From the NCBI RefSeq assembly GCF_002160065.1, contig NZ_NFJW01000002.1, forward strand, positions 1 to 64,000: DNA of 64,000 nt, written 5' to 3'. Shown piece after piece: positions 3,582 to 64,000 of this stretch. The DNA comes from Collinsella sp. An2 (lineage in GTDB: Bacteria; Actinomycetota; Coriobacteriia; Coriobacteriales; Coriobacteriaceae). The position numbers and the translations under genes were made by a program. The first letter of the stretch is position 1. Every line of letters begins with the position of its first letter. The notes beneath the pieces were generated by a model. The model ran no database searches. It saw nothing but the letters and a program-made list of their open reading frames with translations, and had not been told where the DNA came from.

Positions 3582-5588
3582 CTAAGCGCTGAGCAGGGCT
3601 TCCGCTGCCTCAAGGGCCTCGGCTGTGCCGATCATACCCACGCGGTCACCGGCCTCAAGCACCGTCCCGGCATCCAGAAACAGCTCGATATCGGTTCCGC
3701 GCCGCAGCGCGACGGCGTTTGCGCCGGTGCGGGCACGCAGGTCAAGCTGTGCCAGCGTGCACCCCGCAAGCGGGCAACCCTCGCCCACCGATATCCAGTG
3801 CAGGTCGACCTCGGCCAGCGACGCCACCAGGCGCTCAAACGCGTGCATGCGCTTGCCCTGGGCCCCATCGCCCAGCGCCTCGTATCCGCTTGCACGTAGA
3901 TCGTTCGCATAGTCCTGAATCTGCTTGGGTCGATACCCCAGATCAAGCATCGTATGCCGCATAAGCTCGATGCCGCCTTCCAGCTCGGGGCGCACGACGT
4001 CGTCGGCCCCGGCGGCCACGAGTGCTGCCACGCCGTCCTCGGTCTCGGCGCGCGTCACGATGCGCAGGTTCGGGGCAAGCTCACGCGCCTCGCGGGCGAT
4101 CTGCTCGGCCGCTCCGTCACCATTGCCGGCTATCACCAGCACGCGCGCCGTGTCCAGATGCGCATGCGAAAGAATCTCGGAGTTCGCGGCGTCGCCCACC
4201 AGCACGGAGAGGCCATCGGTCTCCGCCTCCTCGGCAACCTGCAGCTCGCGCTCGACCACCAGACAGGGGATGTCCAGGTTCTTCACGACCTCGGTCACGC
4301 AGCGTCCGGCGTGCCCATAGCCCACAACCACCACGTGGCCGCCCAGGTTGTCCGCAGGCGGCTCGAAGTGATGCACATGCCGCTCGTAGAGGCCCGACAA
4401 GCGCTTATGGCCACGCATCCAGTCCTCGATGGGTCCGATTCCCTTAAACACAAACGAGTTGAGCGCGATCGATACCACCGCGCCCCCCAGAATGAGGCTG
4501 TACTGGTCGGCCGAGAGAATGCCCAGCGACATACCCGTCTGGCCAATGATGAACGAGAACTCGCCGATCTGCGCAAGGCCTGCGGCGACGGTAAGCGAGG
4601 TGTGCAAGCCCGCCGAGAGCACCGTGCCCAGCACCATGTTGATGAGCCACTTGCCCACAATGATGAGGGCCACAAGCGCCACGAGCTCGGGCAGGTGCGC
4701 CGCCAGCGTGGCGGGATTCACCATCATGCCCACTGACGCGAAGAAGATGATGGAGAACAGGTCCTTGAAGGGGATGGCCTCGGCTGCCACGCGATGCGAA
4801 AGCTTGGAGCCACCCACCACGACGCCGGCGAGAAACGCGCCAAGGGCCACGGATAGGTCGAAGAACAGCGAGGCGGCCATGGCGGTGCCGAGGGCAATGA
4901 CTACCACGGCAAGCTGGAAGAGCTCGCCGGGGCAGAAGCGCGCGATGCGCGTGAGCAACCAGGGCAGCACGCGCGAGCCCACGACCAGCATGAGGGCCAC
5001 GAAGATGACCGTCTTCGCCAACGCCTCGGCAAGACCGGCCGCAAGCGCAGGGCCCGAAACCTCGCCGGGGCCAAAGAGCACCGGCAGCACCACGAGAATC
5101 ACGACGGTCGCGAGATCCTCCACGATGAGCCATCCCGTGGCGACGCGGCCGCCATGGCTCTGGTAGAGCCCGGCGTCGGTAAGGTTTTTGATGAGCACCA
5201 CGGTCGAGGCGATGCTCACCGACAGGCCGAGCATGATGCCCGCCTCGGCCGACCAGCCAAACGCCATGGCCAGCGCATAGCCGGCAAGCGTTCCCGCCAC
5301 GATCTGCAGAATGGCGCCCGGTATGGCGATGCCTTTGACTTCGAACAGGTCTTTGAGCGAGAAGTGCAAGCCCGTGCTGAACATCATGAACATGACGCCA
5401 ACCTCGGAAAGCTGGTTCATGGCGTCGGAATCTCCGATGAAGCCGGGCGTAAAGGGGCTGACCACCATGCCGCCGACCAGATAGCCGACGATGGGTGGGA
5501 GCCGCAGGGCTCGTGCCACGATTCCGCCGACAAACGCGGCGACAAGCGCGAACACGAACGTCATGAGAAGGATGGTATCTCCGTGCAT
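3582..5588 (-). CDS. Monovalent cation:proton antiporter, CPA2 (KefB/KefC-like) family
   Basis: 668 residues in three parts. Residues ~1-385 form a 12-13 helix Na+/H+ exchanger domain (LRLPPIVGYLVGGMVVSPFT, ALGAFLAGVVVGGSKLSH). Residues ~410-530 are a TrkA-N Rossmann domain with VVVVGYGHAGR. The last ~80 residues are a TrkA-C/RCK_C domain. It most likely exports K+ or Na+ in exchange for protons at the cytoplasmic membrane, gated by nucleotide binding. ATG 5588 is chosen because GGAGG precedes it and it begins directly at the first helix; a longer in-frame extension upstream lacks such a site. Confidence 0.9.
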   Translation of the reverse strand: MHGDTILLMTFVFALVAAFVGGIVARALRLPPIVGYLVGGMVVSPFTPGFIGDSDAMNQLSEVGVMFMMFSTGLHFSLKDLFEVKGIAIPGAILQIVAGTLAGYALAMAFGWSAEAGIMLGLSVSIASTVVLIKNLTDAGLYQSHGGRVATGWLIVEDLATVVILVVLPVLFGPGEVSGPALAAGLAEALAKTVIFVALMLVVGSRVLPWLLTRIARFCPGELFQLAVVVIALGTAMAASLFFDLSVALGAFLAGVVVGGSKLSHRVAAEAIPFKDLFSIIFFASVGMMVNPATLAAHLPELVALVALIIVGKWLINMVLGTVLSAGLHTSLTVAAGLAQIGEFSFIIGQTGMSLGILSADQYSLILGGAVVSIALNSFVFKGIGPIEDWMRGHKRLSGLYERHVHHFEPPADNLGGHVVVVGYGHAGRCVTEVVKNLDIPCLVVERELQVAEEAETDGLSVLVGDAANSEILSHAHLDTARVLVIAGNGDGAAEQIAREARELAPNLRIVTRAETEDGVAALVAAGADDVVRPELEGGIELMRHTMLDLGYRPKQIQDYANDLRASGYEALGDGAQGKRMHAFERLVASLAEVDLHWISVGEGCPLAGCTLAQLDLRARTGANAVALRRGTDIELFLDAGTVLEAGDRVGMIGTAEALEAAEALLSA

Positions 5589-8464: not shown

Positions 8465-9862
8465 ATGGAGGCAACCGCCATCATCCTTGCTGCGGGCGAA
8501 GGCACCCGCATGAAGTCCAACCACGCCAAGGTCTCGCACGAGATTCTTGGCAAGCCCATGATCTGCTGGGTCGTCGACGCCGCGCTCGCCGCTGGCGTGA
8601 CCCGCGTGGTCGTCGTTATCGGCAGCCACGCAGACGAGGTGCGCACGCTGCTGGAAGCCTCCTACGGCACGCGCGAAGACGCCCACATCGAGTGCGTTGA
8701 GCAGACCGAGCGCCTGGGCACCGGTCACGCCGTGCGCGTGGCGCTGGATGCCACGGGTATCGACGCCGGCCCCGTTGTGGTGCTCAATGGCGACCTCCCG
8801 CTGATTCAGCCTCAAACCGTCGAGCAGTTTGCCCAGTCGGTCGCCGACGGCTCCTGCGCGGCTTCCATCCTCACCTGCACCCCGCCCGACCCCTTTGGCT
8901 ACGGGCGCCTGGAGCTCGACGAGCACGGCGACGTCGTGCGCAACATCGAGCAGAAAGATTGCACGCCCGAACAGGCCGCGACCCTGCTTGAGTGCAACAT
9001 GGGCTGCTATGCGTTTGACGGGGCCCAGCTGGCGGCGCATATCGGCGAGGTCGGATGCGACAACGCCCAGGGTGAGTACTACCTGCCCGACATGATTGAG
9101 ATCCTGAGGTCCGCCGGCCAGACCGTGCGCATCTGCCACCTCGATGACTATCGCGAGGCGCTTGGCGTCAACAGCCGTGCGCAGCTCGCCCAGATCACCG
9201 CCATCGCGCGCGACCGCGAGAACGAGCGCCATATGGCCGAAGGCGTCACCATCATCGACCCCACCAGCACCTGGATCGCGCCGGGGGTCACCATCGGCCG
9301 CGATACGGTTGTCTGGCCGCTTACATTCCTGCTCGGCGACACCCATGTGGGCGAGGGCTGCGTCGTCGGCCCCAACACCCGCCTCACCGACTGCCGCGTG
9401 GGCGATGGCTCATCCGTCGAGGAGACCGTGGGCATCCAGGCCGTCATCGAGCGCGAGGTCTCCGTGGGCCCGCGCGCCTACCTGCGCCCCGGCGCCCACA
9501 TACTCGACCACGCCCATGTGGGCACGCACGTCGAGATCAAGAACTCCACCATCGGCGAGGGCTCCAAGGTCCCGCACCTCTCGTACATCGGCGACACGCA
9601 GATGGGTGCCGGCGTGAACATCGGCGCCGGATCCATCACCTGCAACTACGACGGCAAGCACAAAAATGCAACCGTAATCGGAGACCGTACGTTCATCGGT
9701 TCCGATACCATGATGGTTGCTCCTGTTCACATTGGCTCCGACGTCATCACGGGCGCCGGCGGCACCATCACCAAGGATGTTCCTGACGGCGCGCTCGCCC
9801 TCGAGCGTACCGAGCAGCACATCGTAGAGGGTTACACCGAGCGCAGGCGCGCTCGTCTGTAG
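8465..9862 (+). CDS. glmU: Bifunctional GlmU: GlcN-1-P acetyltransferase / GlcNAc-1-P uridylyltransferase
   Basis: 465 residues, standard for GlmU. The N-terminal uridylyltransferase half opens with ILAAGEGTRMKS (nucleotide-binding loop) and includes LGTGHAV and NGDLPLI. From about residue 255 the left-handed beta-helix acetyltransferase runs with hexapeptide repeats (VTIGRDTVVWP, VGTHVEIKNSTIGEGSKVPH, GAGVNIGAGSITCNYDGKHK). It makes UDP-N-acetylglucosamine for peptidoglycan and wall polymers. It lies 48 bases upstream of prs on the same strand; the glmU-prs pairing is common in Gram-positives and suggests co-transcription. Confidence 0.97.
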   Translation: MEATAIILAAGEGTRMKSNHAKVSHEILGKPMICWVVDAALAAGVTRVVVVIGSHADEVRTLLEASYGTREDAHIECVEQTERLGTGHAVRVALDATGIDAGPVVVLNGDLPLIQPQTVEQFAQSVADGSCAASILTCTPPDPFGYGRLELDEHGDVVRNIEQKDCTPEQAATLLECNMGCYAFDGAQLAAHIGEVGCDNAQGEYYLPDMIEILRSAGQTVRICHLDDYREALGVNSRAQLAQITAIARDRENERHMAEGVTIIDPTSTWIAPGVTIGRDTVVWPLTFLLGDTHVGEGCVVGPNTRLTDCRVGDGSSVEETVGIQAVIEREVSVGPRAYLRPGAHILDHAHVGTHVEIKNSTIGEGSKVPHLSYIGDTQMGAGVNIGAGSITCNYDGKHKNATVIGDRTFIGSDTMMVAPVHIGSDVITGAGGTITKDVPDGALALERTEQHIVEGYTERRRARL

Positions 9863-12676: not shown

Positions 12677-13306
12677 ATGGCAGCTGCGCAGCCGGGCAAG
12701 ATCCGCATGGTGGCCGGCCTGGGCAACCCGGGGTCCGAATACGCCGAAACCAGACATAACGCCGGGTTTAAGACCGTTGACGAGCTGGGTCGCCGTGCCG
12801 GTGTGGGCTATTGGAAAAACCAGCTGGGCGCCGAGGTCGCCGTCGTGAAGGTAAACGACCCCGAGGAGCCCGGATGCCAGCGCGATGTGGTGCTCGTCAA
12901 GCCCCAGAGCTTCATGAATACGAGTGGTGGTCCCATCTCTAAGCTCTGCAAAGAATACGGTGTAAGCGCCACCGAGCTGCTTGTTGTACACGACGAGCTG
13001 GACATTCCCGAGGGCGATGTCCGCGTGAAGGTCGGAGGCGGACACGCTGGCCACAACGGCCTGCGCTCGATTATCGACAAACTGGGGAGCCGAGACTTCA
13101 GCCGCATTCGCGTGGGAATCGGCGATCCTCCGGGACGCATGCCCGTAGCCGATTTCGTACTCAAGCAGCTGCGCGGCAAAGAGGCCGAAGCCTTTACCGA
13201 CACCACCATGCGCGCGGCCGATGCCTGCGAGCTCGCGCTGACCCGCGGCGTGGTGTTCGCGCGTGACCATGTTAACGGATCCGCAGCGAGCAACGGCAAG
13301 CACTAG
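12677..13306 (+). CDS. pth: Peptidyl-tRNA hydrolase
   Basis: 209 residues, typical of Pth. Conserved: GLGNPGSEYAETRHNAGF with the catalytic His and Asn, KPQSFMNTSGG, VVHDELDIPEGDVRVK with the catalytic Asp, and GGGHAGHNGLRSI. It releases peptides from peptidyl-tRNAs that drop off the ribosome and is essential in most bacteria. AAAGGAGG lies just upstream. It stands alone, followed by a palindromic intergenic repeat and an insertion sequence. Confidence 0.97.
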   Translation: MAAAQPGKIRMVAGLGNPGSEYAETRHNAGFKTVDELGRRAGVGYWKNQLGAEVAVVKVNDPEEPGCQRDVVLVKPQSFMNTSGGPISKLCKEYGVSATELLVVHDELDIPEGDVRVKVGGGHAGHNGLRSIIDKLGSRDFSRIRVGIGDPPGRMPVADFVLKQLRGKEAEAFTDTTMRAADACELALTRGVVFARDHVNGSAASNGKH

Positions 13307-13459
13307 CCAAGCAGCGAACGGCGAGCCTGCAGCGTTGGCGTGGTGTCGAACCGGTTGTTCTCGTCCGACGTCCCGCCAGGCTCCGCCGCCCGATGCGTCC
13401 TCGCGACCCGTTACCCCGGCGCCCGCAGCGTCCCCGCGGCCCGTTCGCCTTACACCGTT

Positions 13460-13537
13460 TTAGACCAGCAACTAGATTTGACTATCTTTACGCCTGTTTT
13501 GACGCGTTTTCTTTGTCAATTCTAGTTGCTGGTCTAA
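13460..13537. repeat. Palindromic intergenic repeat, TTAGwCCAGCAACT family, copy 1
   Basis: Outer arms TTAGACCAGCAACTAGA (13460-13476) and TCTAGTTGCTGGTCTAA (13521-13537) are perfectly complementary over 17 bp. The next 8 positions (TTTGACTA against TTGTCAAT) continue as an imperfect stem. The loop is T-rich. Copies 2 and 3 at 43596 and 58354 share arm sequence and length. Flanked by pth and an IS30-type element; the sequence from 13538 to 13713 holds only degenerate GGCGAGAC-like repeats. Confidence 0.85.
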
Positions 13538-13713
13538 CTTTGTATGAAGCGAGACGGCGGGGCGGCGCGTCGGCGAGACAGCGGGTCGGCGGGACGATGT
13601 GCCGGCGGCCCAACGAGTTGGCGAGACGGCGCATCAACGAGTCGACGACCACGCGCCGCCGCCTCCGCAGCACCTTGCCGTCACGTCGCCTCGTCACCGC
13701 GCCCCATCGCCGC

Positions 13714-41607: not shown

Positions 41608-42855
41608 CTAAGCCAGCGTCTCCTCCAGCGTACAAACCATGACGGCGCGGCTCGGCGAAGGAATGATGTTGTCGCTGCAGGTGATGAGCGTGAGCACCCG
41701 TGTTGCCGCCTGAGCGCGCTCCGAGGCGTCGTCTGCCTGAGCAGCCGCCCGGTCGAGCAGCCCGGTCAGATAGTCCGCAAGCGTCGGGTCGTCACCGAAG
41801 TTGGTTGTGCGCGCCTCGAGGTACGAGTCCTCCACAAGCGCCGTCATGAGCGGGCGGAAACGGTAGGTCGCGTCGCGAGTGATGTAGTAGACATCCTGCC
41901 AGGTATCGAACACTTGCTGGTCCTGCGTTTGATTCACCTGGTTGAACATGGCGCCGTCGAGCATCTGATGCCCATAGAGCACCGTCTGCTGGTCCACGAC
42001 GCCGGGCGCCGTGTTGGCACAGTCCATAAAAATCGAACCCGACGCGTTCGCCGTTCCGTTAAACAGGTGGTCCAGATACGTCGTGTTGTCGGAAGTCTGC
42101 ACCACCGGATAGTTGATGTTGGTGCCCGGAATGTAAATCCACCCCACCACATCGGGGTTGATAGCTGCAAGCTCGTCGAAATTCGGCTGCGGAATAGAGC
42201 TGCCCTCCGCTTCCGTGTCGTCTATCGGGGCAAGCGTCGCCAGGTCGTCATAGACCCCCTGCGCCTCGCGGTACCCCAACTGCGCGGAGATGAAGATGCC
42301 GGCCGCGGCGAGCAGAAGCGCGACGCCCGCCACCGCCAAGCAGATGGACAGCACCTGAGCAGGTGTGCGGCGGCGTTTTGCGCCGGCGGGGCGGTTGCTT
42401 GCAGAAGCGCCCACTGAGGCGTCGCGGGCGTGAGAGGCAGATACGCGCCGGCCGCGCTGGGGTGCCAAGGCCCGCTGAGCGACCGCCTTGCCCCGTGGGG
42501 TTGCTGAGGGCCGCTGAGCAGCAGCCCTGCCGCTCGGGGATGCGCCGCGAGCACGGGCGCCGCTCCTCGCACCGGGAACCACCGGCCGCACGCCGGCCGC
42601 GCCCGACATGGGCGTAGAGACAGGTCGCACGCCCTTACGTGGCGCAGCATGCGCTCCAGCCGGCCGCGCCGCCGAGGCGGGGCGCGCAACAGGCCGGTCC
42701 GTCGACCCGGGACGTGTAGCAGGCCGAGCACCCGTGGCCGCATGGGCCCTGGGCGCGGACGCGTGCGCCACCGGACCATTCTGACGAGGCTTCGGCTGCT
42801 CATACTCCCCAGCTGGGGCCGCATGCTTAAAGCGTTTTCCCTGATACTCGGTCAT
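41608..42855 (-). CDS. Class B sortase with long basic N-terminal tail
   Basis: 415 residues. A ~170-residue cytoplasmic tail rich in Ala, Arg, Pro and Gly precedes one transmembrane helix (LSICLAVAGVALLLAAAGIF). The sortase domain (from about 210) has the B-class layout: VVGWIYIPGTNINYPVV, catalytic His in TVLYGHQMLDGAMF, catalytic Cys in VLTLITCSDN and Arg in SPSRAVMV. It joins sorting-signal proteins to the wall. The pilin-like protein at 61161 ends in LPSTG, a class A/C/E-type signal, so this enzyme may not be its partner. ATG 42855 follows AAAAGGGG. Confidence 0.9.
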   Translation of the reverse strand: MTEYQGKRFKHAAPAGEYEQPKPRQNGPVAHASAPRAHAATGARPATRPGSTDRPVARPASAARPAGAHAAPRKGVRPVSTPMSGAAGVRPVVPGARSGARARGASPSGRAAAQRPSATPRGKAVAQRALAPQRGRRVSASHARDASVGASASNRPAGAKRRRTPAQVLSICLAVAGVALLLAAAGIFISAQLGYREAQGVYDDLATLAPIDDTEAEGSSIPQPNFDELAAINPDVVGWIYIPGTNINYPVVQTSDNTTYLDHLFNGTANASGSIFMDCANTAPGVVDQQTVLYGHQMLDGAMFNQVNQTQDQQVFDTWQDVYYITRDATYRFRPLMTALVEDSYLEARTTNFGDDPTLADYLTGLLDRAAAQADDASERAQAATRVLTLITCSDNIIPSPSRAVMVCTLEETLA

Positions 42856-58472: not shown

Positions 58473-59105
58473 CTACGAAGCGGACAACGTCGTCCGAGCA
58501 TGCGCCGCCAACACGCCAGCAACCGTCTTCGCATCGGTGATGGACCCGCCCAGCGCGGCCAGCACCAGCTCGCGCAGGTCCACCATGTCCACGTTCAGAA
58601 ACTCGTCGGCATCGGGACTCGTACCCACGAAGTGCAGCCCGTGGGCCAGATACACCCGCACCACCTCGTCCGTGTAGCCCGGCGAGGCCGCCACCGACAC
58701 CAGCGGCTCCAATCGGTCCGCTACAAAGCCGGTCTCCTCGCGCAGCTCACGGCGAGCAGCCGAAGCGGGATCCTCACCGGGGTCGAGCTTGCCCGCGGGA
58801 ATCTCGACCGTCACGGCATCAAACGGCACGCGATACTGACGCACCACCGGCACCTGTCCCTGCGGCGTTATGGCTACCACGCCAACACCGCCCGGGTGCC
58901 GCACAACGTCGCGCTCCTCATGGGCGCCGTCGGGCAGCGTCACCTGCAGGTTGTGCACGTCAATGACGCCGCCGCGCCAAATGTGCTCGTCGCCATTGAT
59001 ATGCTCGTGCAAGGCGGCGTCACGCGGGTCGGCGTCTCCGGCAATATACGGTCGCGAGGGCCAAGGCGACTCGGGCTCCGCGGCGCTCAAAGGGTTCTGC
59101 GCCAT
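58473..59105 (-). CDS. NUDIX hydrolase, ADP-ribose pyrophosphatase-like (second copy)
   Basis: 210 residues. Nudix box GKLDPGEDPASAARRELREE with TGF following; the upstream VPVVRQYRVPFDAVTVEIPA and the downstream PDADEFLNVDMVDLRELVLA match ADP-ribose pyrophosphatases. It starts two bases after the stop of the upstream NUDIX gene (TAG CC ATG), so the pair is translated together. Sequence similarity along their whole length indicates tandem duplication. Confidence 0.9.
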   Translation of the reverse strand: MAQNPLSAAEPESPWPSRPYIAGDADPRDAALHEHINGDEHIWRGGVIDVHNLQVTLPDGAHEERDVVRHPGGVGVVAITPQGQVPVVRQYRVPFDAVTVEIPAGKLDPGEDPASAARRELREETGFVADRLEPLVSVAASPGYTDEVVRVYLAHGLHFVGTSPDADEFLNVDMVDLRELVLAALGGSITDAKTVAGVLAAHARTTLSAS

Positions 59106-59107
59106 GG

Positions 59108-59839
59108 CTACTCCTCTGCCAGACGATGCGCCATGACCTCGCAGGCAAGGGCGCCCACCACGGTCTTTGCGTCTTCGATCTTGCCGTCCAGCACGGCGTC
59201 CACCAGCTCGTTTACCGGCACCAGGTCGACGTTTAGGAACTCGTCCTCGTCGGGCTCGGCACCTTCGAAGCCCAGCTGCGTGGCCAGGTAGATGTGGATC
59301 AGCTCGTCGGAGAATCCGCAGGACGAGGCGATGGTGGTGAGGTAGGCGATGCAGCCCGCCACGAAGCCCGTCTCTTCTTTGAGCTCGCGCTTCGCGCACT
59401 CGAGCGGCTCCTCGCCGGGGTCAAGCTTGCCGGCGGGGATCTCGACCGTCACGCGGTCGAGCGCGGTGCGGTACTGGCGCACCAGGGCGATCTTGCCTGT
59501 TTCGGTAAGGGCCACAATGGCTACGGCGCCGCGGTGACGCACCACGTCGCGCACGGAGGTCCTGCCGTTCGGCAGGCGCACGTCCAGCCGTTCAACGTTG
59601 AAGATCTTGCCCGACCAGGCGATTTCACTCGAAAGAATCTGCTCGTGCAGGTCGGCGTCGTGCTCGGCCTCGTCGCCTAAGATGAGCGAAGGCACTTCCT
59701 CCGGCTCGGGACTCTCGGTCGTCTCGTAGGGCCCGCGGCCCGTGTCGTCGGGCTCGCAGGCGCACTGTTCGGCACCATCCGGACACGGCTCGGCAGGTGC
59801 CTCCTCGCCCGAAACGACCTTCTCCTGATCCTCCGCCAT
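59108..59839 (-). CDS. NUDIX hydrolase, ADP-ribose pyrophosphatase-like (first copy)
   Basis: 243 residues. A ~60-residue acidic leader (GEEAPAEPCPDGAEQCACEP) precedes the NUDIX domain. The box reads GKLDPGEEPLECAKRELKEE followed by TGF, and flanking motifs IALVRQYRTALDRVTVEIPA and EPDEDEFLNVDLVPVNELVD are shared with the downstream copy. Probably hydrolyses ADP-ribose or related nucleotide diphosphates. GGAGGAGGA before ATG 59839. Confidence 0.9.
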   Translation of the reverse strand: MAEDQEKVVSGEEAPAEPCPDGAEQCACEPDDTGRGPYETTESPEPEEVPSLILGDEAEHDADLHEQILSSEIAWSGKIFNVERLDVRLPNGRTSVRDVVRHRGAVAIVALTETGKIALVRQYRTALDRVTVEIPAGKLDPGEEPLECAKRELKEETGFVAGCIAYLTTIASSCGFSDELIHIYLATQLGFEGAEPDEDEFLNVDLVPVNELVDAVLDGKIEDAKTVVGALACEVMAHRLAEE

Positions 59840-59956
59840 GGGTCCTCCTCCCCGCGCCGCGCACCGGCCGGCGTGGCCGCGCGGCGTCTGGAACGTTCGC
59901 ACAATCACGCTAGTTGTACCCAACATGAAGAGGGGTCGATACCTTGTGGGCGAAGC

Positions 59957-60409
59957 CTATGCCGATGCAGAGGCGTCGGGGTTCGTGTCGCCCTTTGTTC
60001 TGCGTCGACGCGAGCGGCGCTGCTTGAGCAGCGTGGCGTGCTCGATGCCTTGTTCGGTTGCCTGATACACGTTGCCCAGTTGGGCTCCGGTGGGGCTGAA
60101 CACCGGGGTCGAAACGATGTCGCCCTCGCGACGCAGGCGGGTCAGTGCGCGGTCGAGGGTGCGTCCGCAGCAGCCCAGACGCTGTACCAGGTCGGTTTTG
60201 CGAAACGTGACCGACCCGTGAATCTCGGTCTCGCGCGCGATCATTTCCAGCACGCGCTCGTGGATGAACGCGTGCCGGCCGTCGATTTCGGTGCTGACGC
60301 CGCGAAGCGACGAGTTGCCCACGCCTTCGCGCGCGGGCGTAGGACGCTTCGCGTCACCTTCCTGGGAAGGACCCCCCCCCAGGCCGTTTTTGAGCAAATC
60401 TGTGGTCAT
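59957..60409 (-). CDS. Winged-helix protein with G9 tract near the start (paralogue of 60783 gene)
   Basis: 150 residues. The winged-helix core is FRKTDLVQRLGCCGRTLDRA, then LTRLRREGDIVSTP, then GAQLGNVYQATEQGIEHATL and a basic tail (KQRRSRRRRTK). It is clearly paralogous to the gene at 60783 (same GRHAFIHERVLEMI and STPVF-TGAQLGN segments). Codons 9-12 hold nine G bases in a row (CTG GGG GGG GGT), so slippage would alter the frame of everything downstream. Its role is unknown; DNA binding is likely. Start ATG 60409. Confidence 0.75.
   Translation of the reverse strand: MTTDLLKNGLGGGPSQEGDAKRPTPAREGVGNSSLRGVSTEIDGRHAFIHERVLEMIARETEIHGSVTFRKTDLVQRLGCCGRTLDRALTRLRREGDIVSTPVFSPTGAQLGNVYQATEQGIEHATLLKQRRSRRRRTKGDTNPDASASA
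60372..60380 (-). repeat. Homopolymer of nine G (coding strand)
   Basis: Nine C on the plus strand, i.e. G9 in the mRNA, inside codons 9-12 of the winged-helix gene. Longest homopolymer I see in the window; such tracts are typical of slipped-strand phase variation. Confidence 0.9.
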
Positions 60410-60492
60410 GAGAGCTCCATTGCATTTGCGTGGCGAACGGTGCGAAACCGCAGCAGGCGCCGCACGTCCAACGGTGTATTGCAATCACTTTA

Positions 60493-60535
60493 GGGGACCC
60501 ACACAATCCTGCCAGTTCATGTTATGTGGGTCCCC
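60493..60535. promoter_or_regulatory. Inverted repeat upstream of the G9 winged-helix gene
   Basis: Perfect 11-bp arms GGGGACCCACA/TGTGGGTCCCC separated by 21 bases, 84 bases upstream of the start codon. No T-run, and the wide spacing looks more like an operator or two half-sites than a terminator. Region 60410-60782 has no gene. Confidence 0.55.
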
Positions 60536-60732
60536 CATTGTTTTATGAGTTTTCTAACATCTTTTTTTGGCGTTTCACCTGGTGTTTTCCGTTCGCCGAT
60601 TTCTTCTGCAGAAGCTGTGGTGTTCGGCGGTGCGCAGGCGTGGTGGAGGGTGATTATAAGGTGCTATGCGACTGTTGATTGCGAGCTGGGTGTCGGGTGC
60701 TCCGAACCGTGTCCGCGCCACGCAAGCGCAAA

Positions 60733-60765
60733 GGACCGGCACGGGATGCTCCCCGCACCGGCCCC
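60733..60765 (-). terminator. Terminator after the 60783 gene
   Basis: On the minus strand GGGGCCGGTGCGGG pairs with CCCGTGCCGGTCC (near perfect) and is followed by TTTGCG, 18 bases after the stop. Confidence 0.75.
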
Positions 60766-60782
60766 TATGGTTTGCAGCCGCT

Positions 60783-61160
60783 CTAGCAGGCTGCCTCTGC
60801 GCTCTTGGGCTTATCCTGGCCCGCAGGCTTCGGACGCTTCTCCGCCCGGAAGGTCTTCGCATGGGCGATGCCCGCTTCCGTGGCGCGGTACTCGTTGCCA
60901 AGCTGCGCGCCCGTCTCGCCGAACACCGGCGTCGAGACGACCTCGCCCGAGCGCCGCAGCCTCACGAGAGCGTTGTCGAGCGAGCGCTCGCAGCATCCCA
61001 GGCGGTGCGCCAGGTCCGCTTTGCGGAACGTGACCGACCCCCGAATCTCGGTCTCGCGCACGATCATCTCCAGCACGCGTTCGTGCACGAACGCGTGCCG
61101 GCCGTTGATCTTCCTGCTGATACCCTTGAGCGACGAGCCCTCGCCGCTCTTGAGCGCCAC
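60783..61160 (-). CDS. Winged-helix protein directly behind the pilin-like gene
   Basis: 125 residues. Core: FRKADLAHRLGCCERSLDNA, then LVRLRRSGEVVSTP, then GAQLGNEYRATEAGIAHA. The start is GTG at 61160, the base right after the pilin-like stop codon (TAG GTG), so it depends on translation of that gene, and it has no clear ribosome binding site of its own. Together with its paralogue at 59957 it forms a regulator-like pair beside a surface protein. DNA target unknown. Confidence 0.78.
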   Translation of the reverse strand: MALKSGEGSSLKGISRKINGRHAFVHERVLEMIVRETEIRGSVTFRKADLAHRLGCCERSLDNALVRLRRSGEVVSTPVFGETGAQLGNEYRATEAGIAHAKTFRAEKRPKPAGQDKPKSAEAAC

Positions 61161-64000
61161 CTACCGCTCACCCCGCTTCCGGATTACGTGAGCCGCGCCC
61201 AGGCATGCCACGCCGATGGCCGCCGTCGCGATGACCGCGCCCAGCATGGCGTCGCCGGTGCTGGGGAGCGTTTCGGTGGGCTGCTCCGGTTTCACGGGCT
61301 GTTCCGGCGTGCTCGGCGTCGAGGGGTTCTCTGGCGTTACCGGGGTTTCCGGAGTCTCGGGCTGCTCGGGGGTCTCCGGAGTCTCAGGCGTCGTGGGCTC
61401 CTCGGGAGTCGTCGGGGTCTCCGGCTCTTCGGGCTCGGGAGTGTTCGGCTTCTCGGGCTCGTGCTCCCCCGGAGGTGTCGTGGGCGGGGTGTAGGTGTTG
61501 GTGAACTTCAGGTCATCGCCACCAGACGTCACCGTAGCAACCAGCTGGCCCTGTCCGTCATCCGTGACACTCACGTGGACGGTGCGGGACGGAATCTTAT
61601 CGTAGGAAACACCACTCTGGCGGTCGTTGACCTCAGTGATGGTGTAGTCATATTCGCCCGCAGTCGTGAACGTGATGGGGCCGAAGGTCACTTTGCCGTT
61701 CTCATCGTTGGTCACCTTCTTCTCGTTGGGCATAGGAGCACCCTCGGAACCTGTGAGCTCGAAGGTGAACCGCCCCGCGGTGAGCTCAGCGCCCTTCAGG
61801 ACCTTGGTTGCCTCGATCGTCGCCGATGTTGAAGTAGGCGTATAAGTGTTAACAAAAGCGAACAGCGGGCCGCTGACCGGATCGGCGACGGCGGTCAGGT
61901 TGCCTTTCCCGTCGTCCGTCAACGTAATCGTGAACGTCCTGGTCGCGGTCGCGTCGTTCGTCACCGACTCGACGGAACCGGATTCGGTCACGGTGTACGT
62001 GAAGGTCTTCGATCGGGAACCGTCGGCGGCGGTCTCGACGCCGGCAAGGTTGTCGAGGTCGAACGAGATGGCACCGAACGTCACGTTGCCGTTCACATCA
62101 TTGGTCGCGGTGGCACCGTCGCCCTCCGGCATCGGCGCGGCCGGGTCGTCCGAGGACAGCGTGAATGTGAACAGGCCCTCCAAGTCGGGATTCGCGGCCT
62201 CGCCGTCGGCGTAGACGAACGACTTGCTGCCGGACGGGGCCACCTCCACCGACTCGCCGGTAGAGTACGTGTTCGTGAACGCGATGCCGCCTCCAGGCAG
62301 GTTGGCGGTGGCAGTCAGCGTGCCGTCGCCGCTGTCCACGACCGTGACCGTGAAGTTAAAACTGCTCGCATTGGCGCTCACGCCGGCGGGCAGACTGTTG
62401 GTCACCTCGTAGGCGGTGTAGTTCAGCGTCCACGTGCGCTGGCCATCGGCGTTCACACCCTTGGTCGCGTAGCCAGCAGTGACCGCCTGCGGCAGCGAGG
62501 TCAGCGTGCCCGTACCCTCATCCGCGGTCGTGTAGCCGAGGCTGCCGAAGCTGACGGTGCCGTCGGCGGTGTTTTTCGCGGTGGCGACCGGATCGAGAAG
62601 GCCGTTCGCGGTGCGTGGGGCGATGGCAAACGAGAACTCGTCGGCCTGCAGGCCGCGTCCGGTCAGCGTCTTGGTCGCAGACACGTTGGCGGCACCGCTA
62701 TCACCGGTCGTAGCTTTATAGGTGTTAGTGAACACGAGCGCATCGGAGGCATCATCGCCCGTTGTCACCAAAGTCGCCTCAAGCTGACCCGTCATCTGAT
62801 TCGGGGCGACGCTCACGGTTACGACCTTCTGCGACTCGTCCTTGGAGAGGCCCTCGATGCTGAAGTCGTTTTCGGTTACCACAAATTGATAGGTGCCCTC
62901 AGCGCTGAACGTGATGTTGCCGAACGACTTCTGATGCACGCCATCGCCGTTCTCATCAGTCGCGCTGATAGAAATCGACGCCGGATTAGGCATGGTCACG
63001 GTGCCGACCTTAACGGCTTCCTCGGTTTCTTCGCCATACGGAGCAATCGTGAAGTCAAAGCTCCAACCATCGTCCCAGTCGGTGCCCACCACACGCTTGG
63101 TCACCACCAGGTTGGTGGCACCGTCGAGCATGGCGCTCGGTGCCCATGTATTGGTCACCGTGGTGGTCGCGGTCTCATTGAACTCAATCGTGCCTATCTG
63201 GTTATCGTCGTACAAGGTCTTGAAGTTTGCCACCTGCTCCTCGGTCACCTGATAGGTAACACCTGCGGGGATATTAGTGAATTGCGCGGTCTGGCCGGCT
63301 TCTAACTGGAACGTCACTGCGCCGTCTTCACCCACGGTGACATCCGCGGCTTCACCATCGCCGATTGCCAGCCGCATGCCGGCAGCCGTAGCTTCGTCCT
63401 GCGTCAGCGCAATGGTGTCCTCCTGACCCTCTTCCGCAGGATGCACAAAGGTCACCGTGAAGTCGAATGTCGCATCCTGGTTAGCGCCCTGACCTGTCAC
63501 CACCTTGGTTACATTGAGCGCGCCAACCTGCTGGTCTTTGATGTGCACAATGGTCACGCCGGTGAACAGATTAGTGACGTTCGCGCTGATATCCTGACGA
63601 GGCGTTGTTGCATGATCGGCAATGTCGCACTGCTCAATTGACAAGCCCGGGACCCCCGCCTCTACGGTATAGGCCCCTCCACTCATCATCTCGTAGTCGA
63701 GCACCGCATCGCCGTCATCCGCAAACTCAAGATGCTGAGTTGATGCACTGCCGTTCGGAACCCATTTCCAAGAGCCATCGTTCTGCTGCTCACGCAACTG
63801 CGGCGTCGCAACGATATCGTGCAGCGTCGCGTCAACATCGTCGGCGGTGGCAAACTGTACCATCGAACGCACGATACGTCCCACGCCGCGGGTCACGCTG
63901 ACTCCGTCGCCATCCGTTCCAGCGTCGGCGTACACGCCCGTGTCGTCGACGATGATTTTGGCAAAGTTCTGGTTCAGCGCATAGCTACTCGGAGCCGCCG
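61161..64000 (-). CDS. Pilin-like LPSTG surface protein with tandem isopeptide domains (5' end beyond window)
   Basis: At least 945 residues; the frame stays open to the right edge, so the start and signal peptide are missing. Several tandem domains each begin near a TK segment (LNVTKVVTGQG, LVVTKRVVGTD, VSATKTLTGRG, IEATKVLKGAEL) and end in FTNTY or a variant, the pattern of Spy0128/FctA-type isopeptide-bonded pilin domains. Typical acidic motif: GEYDYTITEVNDRQ. Then a Pro/Glu/Thr-rich wall spacer (EPEKPNTPEPEEPETPTTPE), the sorting signal LPSTGD, a hydrophobic helix and the tail RKRGER. It should be anchored to peptidoglycan by a sortase and act as an adhesin or pilus subunit. Confidence 0.9.
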   Translation of the reverse strand, partial: AAPSSYALNQNFAKIIVDDTGVYADAGTDGDGVSVTRGVGRIVRSMVQFATADDVDATLHDIVATPQLREQQNDGSWKWVPNGSASTQHLEFADDGDAVLDYEMMSGGAYTVEAGVPGLSIEQCDIADHATTPRQDISANVTNLFTGVTIVHIKDQQVGALNVTKVVTGQGANQDATFDFTVTFVHPAEEGQEDTIALTQDEATAAGMRLAIGDGEAADVTVGEDGAVTFQLEAGQTAQFTNIPAGVTYQVTEEQVANFKTLYDDNQIGTIEFNETATTTVTNTWAPSAMLDGATNLVVTKRVVGTDWDDGWSFDFTIAPYGEETEEAVKVGTVTMPNPASISISATDENGDGVHQKSFGNITFSAEGTYQFVVTENDFSIEGLSKDESQKVVTVSVAPNQMTGQLEATLVTTGDDASDALVFTNTYKATTGDSGAANVSATKTLTGRGLQADEFSFAIAPRTANGLLDPVATAKNTADGTVSFGSLGYTTADEGTGTLTSLPQAVTAGYATKGVNADGQRTWTLNYTAYEVTNSLPAGVSANASSFNFTVTVVDSGDGTLTATANLPGGGIAFTNTYSTGESVEVAPSGSKSFVYADGEAANPDLEGLFTFTLSSDDPAAPMPEGDGATATNDVNGNVTFGAISFDLDNLAGVETAADGSRSKTFTYTVTESGSVESVTNDATATRTFTITLTDDGKGNLTAVADPVSGPLFAFVNTYTPTSTSATIEATKVLKGAELTAGRFTFELTGSEGAPMPNEKKVTNDENGKVTFGPITFTTAGEYDYTITEVNDRQSGVSYDKIPSRTVHVSVTDDGQGQLVATVTSGGDDLKFTNTYTPPTTPPGEHEPEKPNTPEPEEPETPTTPEEPTTPETPETPEQPETPETPVTPENPSTPSTPEQPVKPEQPTETLPSTGDAMLGAVIATAAIGVACLGAAHVIRKRGER

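Follow-up and report, generated by a model that had tools for sequence, protein, structure and literature searches.

Whether a homopolymeric G tract at the start of a small DNA-binding protein gene can switch a neighboring surface antigen on and off is the question raised by one end of a 64,000-nt stretch of Collinsella sp. An2 DNA (hereafter the window; positions 1-64000 of the 263,854-base contig NZ_NFJW01000002.1). Reading leftwards on the minus strand, a gene for a surface protein with an LPSTG motif is followed by two paralogous winged helix-turn-helix (wHTH) genes, copy 2 and then copy 1, the latter containing nine consecutive G residues. An initial annotation had proposed slipped-strand ON/OFF control through this regulator. 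The proposed architecture is found here, and its counterpart in sister surface genes differs in tract length between orthologues, but the main switches are in the surface genes themselves, and the tract of the copy 1 regulator is an extra one. Slipped-strand control at the surface genes appears well supported by these two kinds of sequence evidence, and the locus as a whole is probably a phase-variable surface-protein island with both coupled and separately switched regulators.

The An2 genome (G000; Coriobacteriaceae; 2.54 Mb in 46 contigs, 99.9% complete) was compared with a set that includes its genus-mates Enorma phocaeensis An718 (G001) and Candidatus Limicola stercorigallinarum, and the search for the wHTH family covered 67 genomes of the bacterial family. 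All comparisons rest on draft assemblies, with one genome per species. G tracts were counted genome-wide by pattern search, in which 16 overlapping matches represented 13 distinct runs of at least nine G. A gene is called ON or OFF when its assembled tract length places the ATG frame in or out of frame with the main body of the protein.

Start-proximal G tracts in surface-protein genes

The LPSTG surface gene (61161-64000, minus strand, for its 3' part) encodes FctA, DUF7601, and SpaA domains and runs past the window edge to an ATG at contig position 66334 (L006). A G9 tract at 66294-66302 begins at nt 33. As in the pilin genes of Bifidobacterium, it separates the main body from the start signals, here by falling after the ATG and before the signal peptide; it was missed by the initial annotation because the window ends within the gene. 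The gene is OFF as assembled, its ATG frame closing after 18 codons, and would be ON at G7, G10, or G13, with G10 yielding a 1724-aa protein equipped with a signal peptide. Upstream of it lies a gene for an LPGTG protein of 2743 aa with a VWA domain and 12 FctA domains (ATG at 75579; G10 at 75542-75551, beginning at nt 29), which is also OFF, would be ON at G11 or G8, and is followed by wHTH copy 3. Only four proteins of the An2 genome contain FctA domains, and a wHTH gene lies behind each of them. The earlier description of the LPSTG product as pilin-like holds in the sense of its FctA/Spy0128-like isopeptide and SpaA domains; a polymerized pilus would be a further assumption.

Genome-wide counts revealed that six of the 13 runs of at least nine G are situated at the 5' ends of open reading frames in the sense direction, compared with about 0.34 expected (P about 5e-7). 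Besides copy 1 and the LPSTG and LPGTG genes, these comprise three surface genes with tracts in codons 11-14: L037 (C1:242972; OFF), L041 (C23:181524; ON), and L045 (C45:38582; OFF). SLH domains were found in the L037 and L041 proteins, while the L045 protein, cut by the end of its locus, has both a YDG domain and its start in common with the other two. The three starts follow a single layout, consisting of GCCATG, 30-31 nt, G9 or G10, and a short inverted repeat that exhibits compensatory changes (GACGCTC-GTTCT-GAGCGTC and GATGCTC-ATTCT-GAGCATC). Thus, as assembled, the LPSTG gene, the LPGTG gene, and two SLH-type genes are OFF, and one SLH gene and copy 1 are ON. A hairpin behind the tract was considered as a common aid to slippage and rejected, as it is strong at the LPGTG gene, two SLH tracts, and copy 1 but absent in relatives.

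The same design recurs in relatives. In 14 genes from several genera (six in An2 and eight in relatives), namely copy 1 and 13 surface-protein genes, the tract begins 28-33 nt after the ATG. The wrong frames stop after 13-31 codons in 12 of these genes; they extend up to 71 codons in the LPSTG gene and up to 56 in copy 1. Of the 13 surface genes, the assemblies show ten out of frame, a share near the two thirds that freely wandering tract lengths would produce. Two features of contingency loci are present: the tract sets reading frame or spacing, and, for sister surface genes, its length differs between close genomes. One orthologue pair with nearly identical flanks has G9 (ON) in G056 versus G10 (OFF) in G057, and another has G10 in G034 versus G7 in G014. 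Giant FctA surface genes with start-proximal G7-G10 tracts are found in G034, G014, G005, and G038 (L109, L110, L114, and L120); all four are OFF, and their starts have probably been miscalled in draft annotations. Elsewhere in G014 (C6:692176-692328), up to 40 G residues occur in runs on both strands within 150 bases, which may be an assembly artefact.

Tracts are also found in promoters. One run of at least nine G in An2 lies within a putative promoter spacer (TTGAAA-N18-TATCCT) upstream of an SLH gene (L042, ~3970-4010), and in E. phocaeensis a G10 tract occupies the putative promoter spacer of TTGACA-N18-TATGCT before an LPKTG gene (L077, ~9310-9340). These two tracts likely mediate transcriptional phase variation.

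A wHTH family behind surface-protein genes

Copy 2 (60783-61160, minus strand; 125 aa) starts with a GTG at 61160, on the base immediately following the LPSTG stop codon (61163-61161), as the initial annotation had stated. This arrangement is common in the family, of which 37 solid copies were identified in 16 of the 67 genomes, along with one weak match in a seventeenth. The expected association with surface-protein genes was borne out: 29 of the 37 copies immediately follow a surface-protein gene that ends in a sorting-signal-like tail (in one case a truncated gene), so that the family is not found mostly away from such genes. Furthermore, the wHTH start codon lies 0-6 nt from the surface-gene stop in 21 copies, which puts a DNA-binding protein gene in the tail of an adhesin operon. 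In the truncated case (L056; G053, ~13240-13680), a large internal deletion, or else a repeat collapse, has left the surface gene with only its signal peptide and sorting tail, and the wHTH gene is intact.

The eight unlinked copies are copy 1 and seven others, including one in E. phocaeensis, which keeps a wHTH gene at its purD-Nudix site; the surface genes are missing there, and no FctA protein is left in the genome. The purD-to-Nudix site thus holds a surface island in An2 and only a lone wHTH gene (L054) in E. phocaeensis. Downstream of copy 1, the window contains two adjacent genes for Nudix-type hydrolase-like proteins (58473-59926), which by eye are tandem paralogues.

An AlphaFold model of copy 2 adopts a winged helix (pLDDT 87), and the best fold matches in the PDB are MarR-like and modest (E 1.5e-3, TM 0.47). 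The family is thus confidently predicted to have a winged-helix fold, and its members are probably DNA-binding proteins. HTH_Crp_2 matches 28 of 30 members weakly and falls below the cut-off in the member shown, the Pfam MarR model matches eight of 30 (best E 1.1e-4), and NCBIfam matches are weak; no curated Pfam or NCBIfam model for the family was among the matches in these scans. Invariant residues include RH.F..ER and G.Q..N.Y. A search of contigs with a single wHTH protein gave no match. A profile search of contigs returned 23 loci, all from Coriobacteriaceae or their genera, a result that was obtained with one narrow pattern and does not by itself prove a family limit.

Copy 1 and its G9 tract

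Copy 1 (59957-60409, minus strand; 150 aa) starts with an ATG at 60409, preceded at a distance of 5 nt by a putative GGAG ribosome-binding site (60415-60418, minus strand) read from the sequence. The nine G residues noted earlier are present at 60372-60380 (minus strand; nt 30-38 of the reading frame), in codons 10-13 rather than 9-12. At G9 the gene is in frame, and a shift to G8 or G10 would give a nonsense product of 55 or 18 aa, respectively. Copy 1 is 61% identical to copy 2, but its tract-bearing N-terminal extension is missing from every other aligned family member, and the other 36 copies all lack a tract. Within the window this is the sole run of at least eight G. A G8 run is within chance in the window alone (3.5 expected in shuffles); in contrast, only about 0.0008 tracts of at least nine G would be expected across the five wHTH genes of the genome, counting the initial 60 nt of each. 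The idea that copy 1 represents an ancient, separate regulator was dropped, as the tree leaves its placement undecided.

Proposed mechanism and alternative explanations

In the proposed mechanism, the big sortase-anchored genes of the island start with about ten leader codons followed by a G9-G10 tract, and replication slippage there would bring the signal peptide and the rest of the protein into frame or take them out of it. A wHTH gene that starts at or near the surface-gene stop would be translated mainly when ribosomes finish the surface gene. Because the two lie within a few bases of each other, the wHTH gene should be ON or OFF together with its surface gene, a co-switching suggested by this anatomy and by the polarity known from Bifidobacterium. 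The wHTH protein may then regulate surface operons, reporting the state of the switch through effects on promoters, either those of its own surface operon or those of others. Copy 1 would be a detached paralogue with the same leader and G tract before the conserved core, ON in the assembled sequence, whose level would switch independently of the LPSTG gene. A more ambitious version, which is possible but doubtful, envisions a two-tier stochastic program in which switched surface genes make a linked repressor or activator of other surface operons, while the detached, tract-bearing regulator resets the set. If so, slippage at a few tracts would give a single population a large number of surface states, heritable and coordinated with one another.

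Several points weigh against an island of this kind. The evidence for slippage is strong but indirect, coming from architecture and from orthologue length differences. The tract of copy 1 has no orthologue for comparison, and chance alone would give about 0.3 start-proximal tracts per genome; as this number is not small for a single tract, that of copy 1 is persuasive mainly because its design matches that of the neighboring switched genes. The three tracts located within 15 kb cluster only weakly significantly (corrected P about 0.11), and clustering was therefore dropped as proof by itself. The genomes G034, G014, G005, and G038 have start-proximal tracts without a close wHTH gene, and many Collinsella genomes carry FctA genes without one. 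The notion that wHTH is required for the switch was rejected, since Collinsella-group FctA genes lacking a close wHTH also have tracts. Finally, no shared operator was found among the An2 loci, and the dyad of relatives described below is absent upstream of An2 surface genes.

Alternative explanations differ mainly in the role that they assign to the wHTH genes. Those genes might be constitutive or unrelated hitch-hikers beside surface genes that alone are phase-variable, the copy 1 tract being a fixed, in-frame Gly-rich stretch. The in-frame state of copy 1, its unconserved extension, the absence of tracts from all other wHTH genes, and the existence of eight unlinked copies, one in a genome with no FctA protein left, are in agreement with this explanation. 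It is nevertheless judged rather unlikely: copy 1 matches the switched surface genes in the lengths of its leader and tract and in its ribosome-binding site, GGG accounts for only 16% of Gly codons, so that GGG twice running has a chance of about 2%, and start-to-stop coupling is seen in 21 copies. Somewhat more credible, although still a minority possibility, is that the wHTH proteins are operon-tail regulators of functions other than surface operons, such as growth, metabolism, or other surface layers, in the manner of MrpJ and PapX acting on flagella (PMC9820224). Their operon-end position and the persistence of unlinked copies would fit this role as well, but the presence of multiple wHTH genes in a genome, each paired with a surface gene, is better explained by self or cross control of surface genes, and MrpJ itself does both.

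Two further alternatives concern the tracts themselves. Translation of copy 1 could begin past the tract, at the GTG of codon 30 (60322-60320), in which case G9 would lie in the 5' untranslated region and tune rather than switch expression. Alignment of the family core from GVGNSSLRG onward is consistent with such a start; the ribosome-binding site, on the other hand, is good before the ATG and poor before the GTG (GAAGG one base away), and the ATG-to-tract distance equals that of the other switches, making the downstream start improbable. Assembly errors in homopolymers, with the surface genes really in frame, seem very improbable. Counts may be one off in many-contig drafts, yet tracts recur at a fixed position in independent assemblies of several genera, and the fraction of OFF genes is near that expected for random lengths. 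A phase-variable island with coupled regulators remains the preferred reading of the locus.

Candidate operators and sortases

The 373-nt gap between copies 2 and 1 contains a perfect 11-bp dyad (60493-60535, no strand assigned), GGGGACCCACA (60535-60525) and TGTGGGTCCCC (60503-60493), located about 85-125 nt before the copy 1 start. From its sequence it is a candidate operator or terminator; the other An2 loci examined did not contain it in dyad form. In genomes of a related genus (g4), the dyad TATCGC-N6-10-GCGATA followed by TGCGCA is present upstream of many surface genes. The longer form CTATCGC/GCGATAG with TGCGCA was noted about 60-100 nt before the surface-gene start at L046, L047, L049, L050, L053, L055 (a variant), L056, and L059, and represents a candidate operator or RNA hairpin in these relatives. 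As a shared operator, TATCGC-N6-10-GCGATA was dropped, because it is absent upstream of An2 surface genes and also occurs elsewhere.

A dedicated sortase and further pilins were not found in the LPSTG operon, the nearest sortase genes being about 19 kb and more away. One of the three sortase genes in the genome, at 41626-42138 (minus strand; PF04203 above cut-off; not adjacent), encodes a candidate anchoring enzyme.

Comparison with known systems

Nothing relevant on phase variation in Collinsella or Coriobacteriaceae emerged from searches of the literature. The present findings would extend slippage at G tracts in genes for sortase-anchored proteins beyond Bifidobacterium to a second major actinobacterial family of the gut, the Coriobacteriaceae (Collinsella, Enorma, and relatives), and tie the switch, by start-stop proximity, to an undescribed regulator family. 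They also predict that giant surface proteins of this kind are miscalled as truncated in many draft genomes, and they provide a model in which phase variation in commensals is coordinated instead of independent.

In Bifidobacterium breve, the sortase-dependent pilus clusters bbr_0113 and bbr_1889 are switched by G tracts at which slippage has been measured; a wrong-frame tract reduces transcription within ~600 nt by polarity, and tract length decides the expression of downstream genes (PMC9187656). The An2 island resembles these clusters in that an LPxTG pilin gene of an actinobacterial gut commensal has a G tract close to its start, the tract joins or separates a short upstream open reading frame and the main body, several clusters exist per genome, and OFF states are common. 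The operon in B. breve continues with pilins and a dedicated sortase, whereas here it continues with a wHTH regulator. Furthermore, SLH-type proteins and one regulator carry the device here, and slippage, measured there, is inferred.

MrpJ and PapX, which repress flagella, provide a parallel for the regulator: their genes close a phase-variable adhesin operon or lie just downstream of it, and several paralogues exist per genome, each accompanying an operon (PMC9820224). Those systems differ in using promoter inversion or Dam methylation and in belonging to Gram-negative chaperone-usher fimbriae, and no MrpJ/PapX model was among the Pfam and NCBIfam matches of the wHTH family. In mga of group A Streptococcus, homopolymer slippage likewise affects a regulator that controls a surface protein, the M protein; the C7/C8 tract of mga, however, starts at base 1571, while that of copy 1 lies in codons 10-13 and surface genes carry tracts too (PMC10330708). 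The wHTH proteins share with MarR- and Crp-type regulators three helices, a wing, and a further helix, along with weak HTH_Crp_2 and MarR-like matches; unlike in those regulators, no effector domain or long dimer domain was seen, and their RH.F..ER motif occurs in no curated family searched. As far as these three studies show, no single system among them brings together a switched surface gene, a regulator coupled to it, and a regulator paralogue with a switch of its own. The closest known systems are the Bifidobacterium G-tract pili for the mechanism, MrpJ and PapX for the logic, and the poly-C tract of mga as the precedent for a switched regulator.

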